The position numbers were made by a program, and so were the translations under genes. Below the pieces are notes generated by a model that was given only the letters and a program-made list of their open reading frames with translations, was not told the origin of the DNA and searched no databases. Of a stretch of DNA of 10,382 nucleotides, positions 2,574 to 9,434 are shown piece by piece (positions within the stretch are counted from its first letter, which is position 1; every line of letters starts with the position of its first letter). This DNA comes from Cyanobacteria bacterium T3Sed10_376R1m (GTDB lineage Bacteria > Cyanobacteriota > Cyanobacteriia > Cyanobacteriales > Cyanobacteriaceae), in NCBI GenBank assembly GCA_003566215.1, contig PXEJ01000158.1:1-10382 (forward strand), given 5' to 3'.

Positions 2574-4412
2574 CTATTGAAAACCTAATAACAATGCCCC
2601 ATGATAAAAAATATAAGTAACAATCCAAGCATACACCAGAGAAAAAATTAGGGACAATAGGGTAAAACCCCATGATTTTGACTCCGCCTTTACCGTTGCT
2701 ACCGTTGTTAAACAAGGGGTATAAAGTAAACAAAATACACAAAATGCGATCGCACTACTAGGATTAATCGTAAGGGCAAACTGTGCCGACAAAGCTGAAG
2801 CCCCCATACCGTAAATAGTAGCAAAAGAACCCACCACAATTTCTTTGGCAATAAACCCAAAAATTAAAGAAAGAGTTAAATAAGGATTAATGCCAATAGG
2901 TTGCATAATAGGAGAAAGAAAAACCCCAATTTGCCCCCCCCAAGTATCTAAACCAGTTGCATTTTCAGGAAAATAAGTTAAAAACCACACCGCAACACAA
3001 CCGACAATAATAAAATTAGTCGCTCGACGCAAAAACTCCTTCACCTCACCCCATCCCCTCAACAAAACCTGCTTAAAAGTAGGTAAACGATAGGGTGGTA
3101 ACTCAATCACAAAAGGTTCTGTACTTTGAAACTGTTGGGTTTTACTAAAAACAAAAGCCACCGCAAAACTAGCCACAAAACTAAGAATATACAAAGAAAA
3201 TAAAACAATAGGGCCTAAATTAGCAGGAAAAATCGCCCCAATAATAAAAACAAAAACAGCCAATCTCGCTGAGCATAAAGCAAAAGGAATAATCAACATA
3301 GACAATAGACGCATAGGGCGAGAGCGAATAATTCTCGTACCCATCAAAGCAGGGACATTACAACCAAAACCCATCATCTGCATCACAAAAGCCCTACCAT
3401 CAAGACCCATTTTTGCCATAAAAGCATCCATCAAATAAGCCGAGCGAGATAAATAACCACTATCCTCCACCGCCGCCATCACAAAAAAGAAAATCACAAT
3501 CAAGGGTACAAAAGATGCCACCGTTGCCACCCCAAGCCATAGCCCATTAAGTACAAAACTCTGCACCATCTCAGGCAAAGGATAAATAACCGGCTCAATA
3601 ATTTGTTCCCCAACCCACGTAGTGACAATATCCATCACATCTTGAGACGGTAAGCCTAAATACCAAATTAAAAAGAAAATCCCCAACATAGAAGCGAAAA
3701 AAATAGGAATTCCCAACCAAGGATGCAGTAAAACATTATCTAAACTATCCGTAAAGGTTTTTACATCCTCAGAAGGCATTATCACCGTATCCGTCAAAAT
3801 TTGTTGTCTTTGGCTATCTGTAATAGGATTATTGACAAAATAATCATTTAAATTATTAACAGTAAAAGAATTTTCTTGTTCTTTGATTGCCTTGCCCATA
3901 GCCGTCAAAACTCCCTCCCATCCTTTGCCATACTTAGCACTAATTAAAAATACAGGTATTCCCAACTCCTGTTCTAATTTTTGCTTATTAATCTCCACCC
4001 CATAGCGTTTTGCTTCATCAGCCATATTTAAAATGACCATAGAGGGTAATCCTAAAGCCTTTAGTTCTAAAACAAGGTTTAATTGGCGATCGACCTGAGA
4101 CGCATTAATAACCACTAAAACCAAATCGATAGCAAAATTGCTTAAAAAATCTTTAACCACCGATTCATCTTCCGAAAAACCTTTTAAATCATAAATACCA
4201 GGTAAATCAACTATCTCAACAGTTTCCCCATTAAAAACAATTTCCGCCTGTAACAAATCAACAGTAATACCCGGCCAATTACCCACATGGGCATTAATAC
4301 CAGTGAGACGGTTAAAAAAAGTCGATTTACCCGTGTTAGGTTGCCCAATTAAAGCAATTCTTTTTCGAGCATTACCTGTAACAATAGTTAAGGGCGAGTG
4401 ACAAGTTTGCAT
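2574..4412 (-). CDS. feoB: Ferrous iron transport protein B
   Basis: A 612-residue inner-membrane Fe2+ importer with an N-terminal G domain. GTPase motifs are all visible: G1 GQPNTGKS (23-30), G2 region VGNWPGIT (43-50), G3 DLPG (69-72), G4 NMAD (129-132) and G5 SAK (158-160). A helical linker follows, then the membrane domain (about 229-612). Family gate motifs are present: GFGCNVPA (348-355), PFALCSAR (376-383, Cys380) and YTPC (564-567). It is shorter than the Escherichia coli protein (773 residues) and lacks a long C-terminal tail, as in other cyanobacterial forms. The start MQTCHSPL comes from the ATG at 4412. It lies 38 bp downstream of feoA on the same strand, so co-transcription is likely. 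No feoC is visible. No Fur box was recognised. Confidence 0.96.
   Translation of the reverse strand: MQTCHSPLTIVTGNARKRIALIGQPNTGKSTFFNRLTGINAHVGNWPGITVDLLQAEIVFNGETVEIVDLPGIYDLKGFSEDESVVKDFLSNFAIDLVLVVINASQVDRQLNLVLELKALGLPSMVILNMADEAKRYGVEINKQKLEQELGIPVFLISAKYGKGWEGVLTAMGKAIKEQENSFTVNNLNDYFVNNPITDSQRQQILTDTVIMPSEDVKTFTDSLDNVLLHPWLGIPIFFASMLGIFFLIWYLGLPSQDVMDIVTTWVGEQIIEPVIYPLPEMVQSFVLNGLWLGVATVASFVPLIVIFFFVMAAVEDSGYLSRSAYLMDAFMAKMGLDGRAFVMQMMGFGCNVPALMGTRIIRSRPMRLLSMLIIPFALCSARLAVFVFIIGAIFPANLGPIVLFSLYILSFVASFAVAFVFSKTQQFQSTEPFVIELPPYRLPTFKQVLLRGWGEVKEFLRRATNFIIVGCVAVWFLTYFPENATGLDTWGGQIGVFLSPIMQPIGINPYLTLSLIFGFIAKEIVVGSFATIYGMGASALSAQFALTINPSSAIAFCVFCLLYTPCLTTVATVKAESKSWGFTLLSLIFSLVYAWIVTYIFYHGALLLGFQ
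2746..2753. repeat. HIP1 palindrome GCGATCGC
   Basis: Second exact HIP1 octamer in the window, inside the 3' part of feoB. Confidence 0.85.
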
Positions 4413-4450
4413 TTTTTAGATCTTTTTGTAAAACACTTTTTCAGTAAACC

Positions 4451-4720
4451 CTAAATACATAATAATCGAACCATAATTAGATTCGCTTCAGCTTGACGAA
4501 TAGCGATAACTGTAGTTTTACCAACTTGCACTTGCAGGGGACTTCCCCACCAAAATCTACGTAATACCCTCACGGTATTACCCTTAACAAAACCCATTGC
4601 TTTAAGTCTATTTTTTAAAACTTCCCCATAAATACCAGTATCAACACAATCTATCACAGCAGTTTGATTTTTGTTTAAACTCCCTAAACTGATTAATGTA
4701 TCACTTTCATTAAGACTCAA
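4451..4720 (-). CDS. feoA: Ferrous iron transport protein A
   Basis: An 89-residue SH3-like FeoA protein, a cytosolic partner needed for FeoB-driven Fe2+ uptake. Family traits are [12 protein letters not shown] near the start, the middle block [21 protein letters not shown], and the [24 protein letters not shown] end. The frame has no ATG at its beginning. The TTG at 4720 is the only usual start before the upstream in-frame stop at 4727-4729, and AGGGTG lies 7 nt before it as a Shine-Dalgarno. This places the start 11 bp inside the end of thrC, suggesting translational coupling. feoB follows 38 bp downstream. The ATG at 4710 is out of frame. Confidence 0.9.
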
Positions 4721-5880: not shown

Positions 5881-5909
5881 TTGACACAGACAGATTAATC
5901 AGTTATAAT
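5881..5909 (+). promoter_or_regulatory. Consensus sigma-70-type promoter for rplJ-rplL
   Basis: A perfect TTGACA (5881-5886), a 17-bp spacer and a perfect TATAAT (5904-5909). The expected transcription start is around 5916, giving a leader of about 290 nt before rplJ. Such an exact match to the group 1 sigma factor consensus fits a strongly expressed ribosomal protein operon whose output is then limited by the leader. Confidence 0.85.
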
Positions 5910-5943
5910 AATATGCTTGGAGTCAAAAAAAATATTAAATTTG

Positions 5944-6003
5944 GCTACAGCCGAAGACAGTGGGTGCAACAACATTGCTTAATTATCCTACTCAGGTTGA
6001 TGC
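5944..6003 (+). ncRNA. Ribosomal protein L10 leader (autoregulatory mRNA structure)
   Basis: Outer helix 5944-5952 (GCTACAGCC) pairs with 5995-6003 (GGTTGATGC) with two mismatches. Inner helix 5959-5964 (AGTGGG) pairs with 5987-5992 (CCTACT). They are separated by the asymmetric GAAGAC / CAG internal loop, as in the kink-turn of known L10 leaders. The primary sequence CCGAAGACAGTGGGTG followed by CCTACTCAGG resembles the L10-leader family in other bacteria. There, free L10(L12) complex binds and represses its own operon. Position between the promoter and rplJ supports the call. Identification is by eye; a covariance-model search would settle it. Confidence 0.75.
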
Positions 6004-6017
6004 AGATAACTATTAAC

Positions 6018-6052
6018 AGTGAATTTCAGATTATTTAATTGAGAAAATCACT
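6018..6052 (+). other. Second hairpin of the rplJ leader
   Basis: A 10-bp stem with one mismatch (6018-6027 AGTGAATTTC with 6043-6052 GAAAATCACT) around a 15-nt AT-rich loop. It lies between the L10 leader and the terminator-like hairpin. It could be a spacer structure or part of an alternative fold; no function is assigned. Confidence 0.45.
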
Positions 6053-6090
6053 AATTATATTAAAAAACTATCTTTACATCATCAACCCAG

Positions 6091-6126
6091 AACCCGGCTA
6101 GAAATAGTGAGGGTTTTTCTGTTTTT
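6091..6126 (+). terminator. Putative attenuator (intrinsic terminator) in the rplJ leader
   Basis: Stem AACCC (6091-6095) pairs with GGGTT (6111-6115). It is topped by a CTA-GAAA-TAG tetraloop hairpin (6098-6107) across a small internal loop, and followed by TTTTTCTGTTTTT. This looks like an intrinsic terminator about 80 nt before rplJ. With the upstream L10 leader, it suggests premature termination when L10(L12) binds, as described for Firmicutes. The regulatory link here is inference; the lower stem is short. Confidence 0.55.
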
Positions 6127-6193
6127 AGTTGTTCTATAAATGTTTTGGGCTAACCAAAAATCATCTTAAAAAACAACGAATTTTAAAATATCC

Positions 6194-6203
6194 GAGGAGG
6201 TGA
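6194..6203 (+). promoter_or_regulatory. Strong Shine-Dalgarno of rplJ
   Basis: GAGGAGGTGA is almost fully complementary to the 16S rRNA 3' end. It is unusually strong for this window, where most genes show none. Its AGGAGG ends at 6200, 8 nt before the ATA at 6209. It overlaps the GTG at 6200, so that GTG cannot be the start served by this site. It therefore decides the rplJ start. Confidence 0.85.
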
Positions 6204-6208
6204 GAACC

Positions 6209-6742
6209 ATATCTAAATCCCTTGAGAGCAAACAAAAAGAAGTAGCCTATATCAAAGGCTTACTTGCCGAAACCCAATTAGCGTTAGTCATTGACTATCA
6301 AGGGCTTAGTGTTGCTGAAATTAGAGATTTGCGTAATCGCCTAAGAGAAAACAACAGTACTTGTAAAGTGACTAAAAATACTTTAATGAGTAAGGCTGTC
6401 GAAGGAGACGCAAATTGGGAACCAATTAATCAATTTTTAAAAGGTTCTTCCGCTTTTATTTTAGCTGACGCCGACAACATCGGCGGTGCGGTGAAAGCCT
6501 ACCAAGCATTCCAAAAAGATCGCAAAAAAAGCGATTGTCGTGGCGGTGTTATGGAAGGTCAAGCCCTTACCAAAGATCAAGTCAAAGCCCTTGCTGACTT
6601 ACCCACCAAAGAGGAACTCATTGCACAAATTGCTGGTTCTATTAACTCTATTACTGCGAAAGTGGCTCGTAGCATTAATGAAGTACCTAGTTCCTTGGCT
6701 CGTGCGGTGGATGCCGTTAAATCTCAAAAAGAAGCGGCTTAG
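6209..6742 (+). CDS. rplJ: 50S ribosomal protein L10
   Basis: A protein of about 177 residues that anchors L7/L12 dimers on the large ribosomal subunit stalk and, as free L10(L12), represses its own mRNA. Recognisable blocks are LALVIDYQGLSVAEIRDLR, the TCKVTKNTLM segment, LKGSSAFI, RGGVMEG and the C-terminal helix that binds L12. The frame offers no ATG near the start. The GTG at 6200 lies within the Shine-Dalgarno. The ATA at 6209 lies 8 nt after AGGAGG and gives [M]SKSLESKQ, the same length from start to IDYQGL as I remember for Synechocystis L10 (MGRT...). I therefore choose ATA; starting at 6200 would add three residues. First gene of rplJ-rplL, 60 bp before rplL. Confidence 0.93.
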   Translation: MSKSLESKQKEVAYIKGLLAETQLALVIDYQGLSVAEIRDLRNRLRENNSTCKVTKNTLMSKAVEGDANWEPINQFLKGSSAFILADADNIGGAVKAYQAFQKDRKKSDCRGGVMEGQALTKDQVKALADLPTKEELIAQIAGSINSITAKVARSINEVPSSLARAVDAVKSQKEAA

Positions 6743-6802: not shown

Positions 6803-7186
6803 ATGTCTGATAAAGTAGCAAATATTGTTGAAGAATTAAAAACTTTAAGTCTTTTAGAGGCTTCTGAGCTTGTTAAAGAAATTGAAGAAGTTTTTGGTGT
6901 AAGTGCCGCTGCCCCTGTTGGCGGTATGATGATGGCCGCTCCTGCGGCTGGTGCGGCGGAAGAAGCTGAAGAGAAGACCGAATTTGATGTTGTTCTCGAA
7001 AGCTTTGGTGATTCTAAAATGAATGTTCTTAAGGTTGTTCGTGGAATCACTGGTTTAGGCTTAAAAGAAAGCAAAGAGTTAGTTGAAGCTGCTCCTAAAG
7101 CTATTAAAGAAGCTGTAAGCAAAGAAGATGCTGAAACCATGAAGAAACAATTGGAAGAAGCTGGAGCTAAAGTTTCTATCAAATAA
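6803..7186 (+). CDS. rplL: 50S ribosomal protein L7/L12
   Basis: A 127-residue stalk protein that recruits and activates translation GTPases. The N-terminal dimerisation and L10-binding helices (about 1-32) are followed by an Ala/Gly-rich hinge with [13 protein letters not shown] (about 40-55). The C-terminal domain begins [13 protein letters not shown] and contains the conserved [20 protein letters not shown] segment, ending in AGAKVSIK. Length is normal. AGGAGA (6785-6790) precedes the ATG at 6803 by 12 nt. It is co-transcribed with rplJ and followed within 25 bp by a strong terminator. Confidence 0.98.
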
Positions 7187-8186: not shown

Positions 8187-8453
8187 ATGCCCTGGTTCGT
8201 AAAAATAGAAAAAGGAATTGTACCGAAAGAAGTTTTTGATCAATTTGTTCCCCAACATAAAGAATATGTAAAAAACTTGAATCAATTAGGTCATGAAGCA
8301 AAAACGGGATATTGGAAACAAGATCAAGGGGGAATGTTATTGTTTAAAGCCAATTCCATGGAAGAAGCCAAAAAAATCGTTGAAAATGATCCTTTAATTA
8401 AAAATAAATGTGTTGAATATATCCTACATCAATGGTGTATAGTCGATAGTTAA
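8187..8453 (+). CDS. YciI-family small protein
   Basis: An 88-residue soluble protein with the ferredoxin-like (dimeric alpha-beta barrel) YciI pattern. A strand MPWFVKIEKG is followed by a helix holding His24 in PQHKEYVKNL. Then come GGMLLFKANSMEEAKKIVENDPL and a closing strand with EYILHQWCIV. The His and the NDP motif (67-69, Asp68) are the conserved pair of the family. Related proteins include enzymes and stand-alone proteins of unknown activity, so no reaction is assigned. The ATG at 8187 follows AAAGAAA, a weak ribosome-binding site. The last 30 bp overlap the 3' end of fmt on the other strand. Confidence 0.82.
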   Translation: MPWFVKIEKGIVPKEVFDQFVPQHKEYVKNLNQLGHEAKTGYWKQDQGGMLLFKANSMEEAKKIVENDPLIKNKCVEYILHQWCIVDS

Positions 8454-9434
8454 AATTTCCCCTAACTCTAAATGAGTCCCATTGACAAAATTCCAAGCAG
8501 ACTGTAGTTTTTTACCAGCTAATTGTACTTGCAAAATTAATAACAAACCTGAACCTGTTTGAACTACAAAACCAAAATTTTTGATAGTTTTAACTATTTC
8601 CCCTACCTCCCCTTTTATTTGCTCAAGGTTAGATAAATAGGATTTAACTTTGCTTAATTCTGGTGGTAATTCAAGACCATCTAAATCATCTAAAGGTAAA
8701 GTTTGACTAATCTTTAAATTTTCCCCTCTAAAAGAAGTCACACAGTTAGGATAAAAAGCCCTAACCTGATTATGAATTGCTAAAGCCGATTTTGACCAGT
8801 TGATTAAATAATCTTCTTTAGTTATTAAACGAGCGTAGGTAGCTAAATTATTGTCTTGGGATAGGGGTTTAATTTCGGGCAACTTAGCAAGGGTTTCCAT
8901 CAATAAATTTGCACCTTGAAAAGCTAACCTTTGAGCTAATGTATCAGCATTATCGAACAAAGAAATTGGACTATGGGCTTCTAATAAAGTTGCCCCTGTG
9001 TCCATACCCTCATCCATTGCCATGGTAGTAATACCTGTTTTGGTTTGACCATCATAGATACTCCATTGAATAGGTGCCGCTCCTCGGTATTGGGGTAATA
9101 TTGATCCGTGGACATTAATACATCCGTACTTGGGCATATTCAATATTTGAGAGGAAAGAATTTGTCCATAGGCAACGACTACAAAAAAGTCTGCTTGAGT
9201 TGTTTCTAATAGTTTAAGAGTTTGTTGATCTTTTTTGATGCGATTAGGGTGCCAAACTGGAATATTATGATTTAGGGCGACTTTTTTAATGGGGGAAGGA
9301 ATGGTTTTACTACCTCGGCCTCGGCGTTTATCGGGTTGAGTGACAACGGCGATAACCTCATGATTTTGATCGATTAACAGTTTTTCAAGGGTAGGAACAG
9401 CAAAATCTGGGGTACCGAAAAAAACAACACGCAT
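8424..9434 (-). CDS. fmt: Methionyl-tRNA formyltransferase
   Basis: A 336-residue cytosolic enzyme that formylates Met-tRNAfMet with 10-formyltetrahydrofolate for translation initiation. The N-terminal Rossmann-type domain starts MRVVFFGTPDFAVPTLE. The catalytic triad is visible as Asn107 and His109 in NVHG and Asp145 in DEGMDTG. The folate-binding SLLPxxRG motif appears as SILPQYRGAAPI (111-122), with Ile for the first Leu. The tRNA-specific loop QPDKRRGRGSK (33-43) is conserved. A C-terminal OB-like domain follows about residue 210. Normal length and ATG start. It overlaps the YciI-like gene tail to tail by 30 bp; its own last codon before the TAG is Met. Confidence 0.97.
   Translation of the reverse strand: MRVVFFGTPDFAVPTLEKLLIDQNHEVIAVVTQPDKRRGRGSKTIPSPIKKVALNHNIPVWHPNRIKKDQQTLKLLETTQADFFVVVAYGQILSSQILNMPKYGCINVHGSILPQYRGAAPIQWSIYDGQTKTGITTMAMDEGMDTGATLLEAHSPISLFDNADTLAQRLAFQGANLLMETLAKLPEIKPLSQDNNLATYARLITKEDYLINWSKSALAIHNQVRAFYPNCVTSFRGENLKISQTLPLDDLDGLELPPELSKVKSYLSNLEQIKGEVGEIVKTIKNFGFVVQTGSGLLLILQVQLAGKKLQSAWNFVNGTHLELGEILTIDYTPLM

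Follow-up and report, generated by a model that had tools for sequence, protein, structure and literature searches.

The rplJ gene for ribosomal protein L10 very probably initiates at an AUA codon throughout the cyanobacterial family Cyanobacteriaceae, with AUU in its place in one genus. This start, proposed in the original prediction, is well supported by its position and phase, its conservation, the Shine-Dalgarno sequence ahead of it, the ATG column of outgroup genes and two public entries. The wider statement, that the AUA start also serves to limit L10 relative to L12, is plausible but falls somewhat short of probable. The window, i.e. the whole stretch of DNA analysed (10,382 nt), is contig C96 of a genome that is available in 431 contigs and is 63% complete. 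The following features of the window are relevant here:

5881..5909, + strand: promoter-like sequence TTGACA-17-TATAAT, 5' of the rplJ leader, with 12 of 12 consensus bases; putative, from the consensus match alone
5933..6128, + strand: L10 leader RNA, Rfam RF00557, 44.8 bits against a gathering score of 44
6195..6203, + strand: Shine-Dalgarno sequence AGGAGGTGA, 9 nt, the longest match to the 16S complement
6195..6222, + strand: possible hairpin of the Shine-Dalgarno sequence with codons 2-5, AUA in a 6-nt loop (6206-6211); tentative, from pairing across the family
6200..6202, + strand: in-frame GTG, part of the Shine-Dalgarno sequence, judged a non-start from spacing, variability and the outgroup comparison
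6209..6211, + strand: ATA, proposed start codon of rplJ, from the alignment column, family conservation, outgroups and public entries
6209..6742, + strand: rplJ, ribosomal protein L10, 177 aa given the ATA start; Pfam PF00466 is precomputed in its relatives
6803..7186, + strand: rplL, ribosomal protein L7/L12, a putative name given by its sequence; ATG start, AGGAG, 60 nt after rplJ

Positions 6194-6211 of the window read G6194 A G G A G G T G A6203 G A A C C A6209 T A6211, and the L10 frame is opened by the ATA at 6209-6211 in the context GAGGAGGTGAGAACC-ATA-TCTAAATCC, as read directly from the window. The distance from the last G of GGAGG (6200) to the A of ATA is 8 nt. The 16S 3' end used for the match, GGATCACCTCCTT, was taken from the same-genus relative G002 and not from the window's own genome. 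In the upstream open frame of rplJ the GTG at 6200-6202 is the only standard start, and ATG, GTG and TTG are absent from the 10 open codons that precede it. The nearest standard start 3' of the ATA is a TTG at codon 41, the use of which would delete the first 40 residues. The window sequence thus bears out both the strong in-frame Shine-Dalgarno sequence 8 nt ahead of ATA and the lack of an ATG there, with the sole standard codon lying inside the Shine-Dalgarno sequence. It had further been claimed that the ATA occupies the initiator position of L10, and this held as well: the same alignment column is ATG, TTG or GTG in 94 of 94 outgroup loci.

The conservation of the ATA in close relatives, proposed as a check at the outset, was assessed in a family sample of 15 genomes, in 14 of which rplJ was matched; the miss was G005, which is 67% complete. 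The start column of these 14 genes from 4 genera holds ATA 12 times and ATT twice, and ATG, GTG and TTG do not occur in it. The ATT is confined to one genus (2 genomes), while ATA is also present in Geminocystis sp. GBBB08 (L002) and Cyanobacteria bacterium CG_2015-22_32_23 (L003). Upstream, the sequence GGAGGTGAG (6196-6204; -13 to -5) is identical in all 14 genes, and a Shine-Dalgarno run of 8-10 nt at spacing 8 was found at 16/16 family loci (standing for the 14 genomes). The four bases preceding the start codon are variable, as are most positions further 5'. The codon directly before ATA is ACA in 8, AAA in 2, GTC in 2, ACC in 1 and GCA in 1 of the genes (Thr, Lys, Val, Ala), and the one before that is AGA in 12 and AGG in 2. 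An invariant GGAGGTGAG next to a variable codon before ATA makes the GTG at 6200 look like a piece of the Shine-Dalgarno sequence and not like a start. Downstream, codons 3-6 of rplJ show synonymous changes alone, codons 2 and 7 one replacement each, and later codons are mixed. With no standard codon in the start column across genera and an extended Shine-Dalgarno sequence, rplJ shares these sequence features of near-cognate starts as a class, and 42 public protein clusters are in line with the conservation. The 14 genomes have a shared ancestry and do not represent 14 independent events, which counts against our explanation.

How exceptional this arrangement is can be seen from orthologs of G002 and of G011, which belongs to another genus, compared over 1.2 Mb each. 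The 354 reciprocal best pairs were reduced to 314 by limits on identity and length and to 260 by removal of overlaps; 178 of them had an aligned standard start (rplJ being included via its GTG) and 82 had none in range. ATG stands on both sides in 146 of the 178 pairs. On the G002 side, 129 of the 178 lack a Shine-Dalgarno run of at least 4 nt and the longest run is 7 nt, compared to 9 for the rplJ ATA. Runs of at least 8 nt on both sides do not occur in the 178 pairs; ahead of the rplJ ATA, at spacing 8, the run is 9 nt long in G002 and G011 alike. Aligned non-standard codons with a Shine-Dalgarno run of at least 5 nt in both genomes were found in 16 rows; rplJ aside, the runs are 5-6 nt long and five of these other rows are without an aligned standard start in range. 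Apart from the rplJ ATA, no aligned near-cognate codon of G002 and G011 has a run longer than 6 nt, though further near-cognate starts may exist among the 82 pairs that lack an aligned standard start. In the same two stretches of 1.2 Mb (partial genomes), 23 and 12 tRNAs were detected; their Met anticodons are CAU, and no UAU tRNA was among them.

The 94 outgroup loci comprise two sets of 80 and 30 minus 16 family loci, with some genomes in both sets. Their L10 start column holds ATG at 84, TTG at 7 and GTG at 3 loci, and a Shine-Dalgarno run of at least 8 nt is present at 79 of them. GGAGG is separated from the start by 10 nt at 60/94 outgroup loci versus 8 nt in the family, and it is this difference that places the GTG in frame in the family. 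Based on these alignments, the family rplJ seems to derive from a gene with an ATG start in which the spacer was shortened and the ATG turned into ATA. In Hormoscilla (L018, L020, L032) an in-frame GTG and an ATG are both present. TTG starts of rplJ were observed in L009, L014, L025, L028, L029, L065 and L103, under Shine-Dalgarno runs of 9-10 nt.

Two wider scans were also made. A class-wide scan for the AUH pattern used too short a spacer and returned AUH in 10/388 genomes, with an ATG control at merely 22/388, so that it is uninformative. With a wider spacer, 187/242 genomes gave some match, many of them chance strings. Among the matches listed were rplJ-like sites with ATG, TTG and GTG, as well as an ATA (G126) and an ATC (G030) string, and both of these genomes also show an ATG rplJ-like site. 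AUH starts of rplJ in other cyanobacterial lineages were judged from the 94 outgroup loci alone. As a side observation, the rplJ match at G043:C273:4079-4599 consists of two overlapping pieces with an internal TAA, in a genome that is 61% complete; this is either a broken gene or an assembly error.

The start is embedded in what seems, from these matches, to be an operon with the usual L10(L12) feedback site. Promoter-like sites number 3 in the window versus 1.7 expected in shuffles, and the one at 5881-5909 alone matches 12/12. The family model RF00557 ends in a terminator-like hairpin with a U run; a simple terminator scan of the window returned no + strand terminator at the L10 leader. RF00557 also scored above threshold in 11/13 other family loci and 6/7 outgroup loci, while the regions upstream of rplJ in L092 and L093 (genus g3) and in the outgroup L009 have no L10 leader at threshold. 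With the leader present, the effect of a weak start would come in addition to leader control. Elsewhere in the window, the reverse strand at 8424-9434, 1.2 kb from rplL, carries what we take to be methionyl-tRNA formyltransferase, an initiation gene, and at 2574-4720 (- strand) there are two ORFs that presumably resemble those of the ferrous iron transport proteins FeoB and FeoA.

In the mechanism that we favour, the ordinary initiator tRNA would read the AUA of rplJ (AUU in one genus), and the Shine-Dalgarno sequence of about 9 nt would hold the mRNA with AUA in the P site. Initiation would then stay well below the AUG level, and selection would keep the weak codon since it would reduce the output of L10 compared with that of L12; the latter comes from the next gene, with an ATG of its own, and several copies of it are required per L10. 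The AUA would be a fixed brake on translation, in addition to the control of the operon by the L10 leader. A weak start on the first gene followed by an ATG on the second is an anatomy that fits such a dosage brake, and 4 to 8 L12 are bound per L10, with one L10 per stalk (PMC4592705, PMC6021402). That not one of the 14 genes has ATG, although a single transition would create it from ATA, argues for selection. Against a dosage role it counts that the same long Shine-Dalgarno sequence stands ahead of an ATG in most outgroups, so that the L10:L12 ratio is attainable without a weak start. A brake would therefore have to offset something specific to the family, perhaps a stronger promoter. The dosage role and the next two alternatives all presuppose the AUA start.

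The AUA could be the true start and have no regulatory role, having drifted in when the codon was nearly neutral under a very strong Shine-Dalgarno sequence. We regard this as a serious competitor, if on balance an unlikely one. A single origin would account for the whole family, and the start codon looks tolerant, given that 10 of the 94 outgroup loci start with TTG or GTG and that runs of 8 nt or longer are present at 79 of the 94. Drift is harder to reconcile with the absence of ATG, a single transition off, from all 4 genera, and with the cost of such codons elsewhere: in S. aureus, AUA and AUU take away about 70-90% of the output despite an extended Shine-Dalgarno sequence (PMC13009471), and for the start of Listeria rsbW the order of strength is ATG > ATA > ATT (PMC13068326).

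Another possibility, raised in the original prediction, is a sensor of initiation fidelity, in which IF3 or its activity represses initiation at the AUA and the output of L10 reports IF3; we consider it improbable. Near-cognate starts are repressed by IF3 in E. coli and Streptomyces (PMC5472188). The start of infC itself is ATT in E. coli and B. subtilis (PMC5472188 and PMC6097659, respectively), ATC in Streptomyces (PMC5472188) and AUA in S. aureus (PMC13009471). In the family studied here infC has a GTG in one conserved context at 14/14 loci (L112-L125; start inferred from the alignment). It is present in 14/15 family genomes, away from rplJ, and was not found in the window's own incomplete genome. 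Outgroup infC reads GTG at 25/26 loci (L247-L274), the remaining one, L269, being GTA, and five outgroup loci have an additional ATG two codons upstream of the GTG. A CCT just 5' of the infC GTG was seen in the 14 family loci and most outgroup loci, including L263, where it follows a stop codon. With GTG as its start, infC of the family does not show the classical AUU feedback, which leaves room for another IF3-responsive gene. The gene with the AUA start is rplJ, and so does not encode IF3 as an infC-type sensor would.

The IF3 proteins of the 14 family loci were compared with those of 26 of 29 outgroup loci (L246, L256 and L265 were not matched by the motif and were dropped). The family differs by 9 diagnostic substitutions, a number that would favour a sensor but that means little without a control protein from the same branch. 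They include a change from E-A to A-I at two columns that are invariant in the 26 outgroup IF3s and that we take to lie in the interdomain linker. We know of no IF3 loop that involves L10, and a limitation of L10 relative to L12 is simpler than a sensor and explains the anatomy at least as well. It is similarly improbable that the stalk base protein L10 of this family stands under an IF3-policed AUA, by which stalk assembly and translation-factor recruitment would be coupled to initiation fidelity; if it did, no earlier case of a sensor of this kind in the gene of a ribosomal protein would be known to us.

A further alternative, compatible with the other readings and itself rather doubtful, is that the weak start and the hairpin at 6195-6222 together let L10 or another factor gate initiation. 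Nine pairs hold across the 11 distinct sequences compared, with 98% of the cells paired as opposed to 23-63% when the pairing is slid, and the covariation score was matched by 9/500 shuffles. There is one double change, from A-U to G-C at -4/+4 in genus g3, but one such change was reached by 170/500 shuffles, and the structure was derived from one of the sequences compared. The predicted openness of the Shine-Dalgarno sequence is 0.36 in the 14 family genes versus 0.46 in 74 distinct outgroup sequences (ATG 66, TTG 6, GTG 2; p 0.044). This comparison covered sequences with at least 60 nt upstream and a GGAGG within the last 18 nt, after the removal of duplicates. The start codon, in contrast, is predicted to be more open in the family (0.84 versus 0.44 in the outgroup), and the stability of the native fold is equalled or surpassed by 6-65% of synonymous variants, which is not significant. 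The hairpin is therefore kept as a tentative lead.

The GTG at 6200 as the true start, with L10 three residues longer and the ATA an ordinary internal Ile codon, appears very unlikely. The in-frame GTG is present in 14/14 family genes and is followed by Arg in 14/14, the shortened family spacer puts it in frame, and a GTG start without a Shine-Dalgarno sequence is conceivable when so many of the ortholog pairs lack even a run of 4 nt. Nevertheless, this GTG is the core of the Shine-Dalgarno sequence, and by spacing the equivalent bases are out of frame at 69/94 outgroup loci. No Shine-Dalgarno match was found 4-12 nt 5' of the GTG in G002 or G011. The Arg codon would be largely fixed by the Shine-Dalgarno bases alone, and among public relatives this position can also be Ile, Ser or Thr. 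An internal Ile codon would be expected to drift to ATT or ATC, but ATA is kept: G002 uses ATA for 12.9%, ATT for 56.8% and ATC for 30.3% of 6510 Ile codons, and drawing at least three ATA among 4 genera from this usage has a probability of about 0.008 (hand calculation with the G002 frequencies). The four other fully conserved Ile columns of L10 contain ATA in 0/56 codons of the 14 genes, and a single codon is kept in all 14 at 4 of the 77 invariant residues after the ATA.

Public annotation bears on the same question. A protein search kept 113 of 2299 candidates at E <= 1e-60, from which 42 clusters were then chosen by their N-terminal motif. Of these, 40 have Ile in the start column and are annotated from the GTG or further 5', some with an NCBI source (P0004, P0011, P0032), which speaks for the GTG as the start; an AUA start would explain this upstream annotation. 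The two residues preceding the Ile are RT in 24, RI in 5, RK in 3, IT in 3, SL in 2 and SK, TT and RV in 1 each, a variation that is more in keeping with a Shine-Dalgarno sequence and an unconstrained spacer than with the N-terminus of a protein. In the other two clusters the column holds the annotated start Met. Both correspond to loci with ATA in the DNA: the NCBI-named Geminocystis proteins of NIES-3708 (P0009, 177 aa) and GBBB08 (P0012, 178 aa), which start with MSKSLES, match L087 and L088+L002, respectively, all ATA. In two metagenomic entries, P0029 and P0041, the residue of the start column is Ile and is followed by the GRT N-terminus common in other cyanobacteria; judged from these proteins, the AUN start may predate the SKS change of the family, and they possibly represent an early branch of an AUN-start lineage.

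A single-base sequencing or assembly error of ATG, conceivable for a genome as fragmentary as that of the window, is refuted by ATA in 11 further genomes from three genera and ATT in two, all 13 of them 96-100% complete and none with ATG.

Two NCBI-named entries have thus already placed the ATA start, with no comment seen there, and no report of an AUA start of rplJ was found in the open-licence literature searched. Near-cognate AUA and AUU starts are known in few genes, several of them regulatory, and to find one conserved in the gene of a core ribosomal protein is unexpected. The rplJ AUA offers a natural system for studying how a strong Shine-Dalgarno sequence compensates for a weak codon and whether the choice of start codon sets the L10:L12 ratio.

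Among known systems, the closest by gene are the cyanobacterial rplJ genes with TTG or GTG (e.g. L009, L014, L028, L103, L011), which share the Shine-Dalgarno run of 9-10 nt and a non-ATG start; theirs are standard codons, whereas the ATA and ATT of the family are of the AUN kind. With infC, rplJ has in common that a core translation gene begins at a near-cognate AUN codon, which in S. aureus infC also stands behind an extended Shine-Dalgarno sequence; unlike IF3, the rplJ product polices no start codons itself, and infC of this family shows GTG. S. aureus ccpN (AUA) and cvfC1 (AUU) likewise combine a conserved codon with an extended Shine-Dalgarno sequence, and initiation there is low (PMC13009471): the AUA and AUU starts of ccpN, citZ and cvfC1 reach about 10% of AUG in poor medium, and that of ccpN up to 30% in rich medium. 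Those are Firmicute genes known from ribosome profiling and reporters, while the cyanobacterial rplJ is known from its sequence. Streptomyces sigR has a GTC start with the RBS AGGAGGTG, is repressed by IF3 at this start, and its product, the first of the operon, is kept below the second (PMC5472188). The codon, the gene and the phylum are different and the effect of IF3 was measured in sigR, but both are the first of a two-gene operon, with a product that should be the scarcer one, an extensive RBS and an annotation that was shifted to an upstream standard codon.
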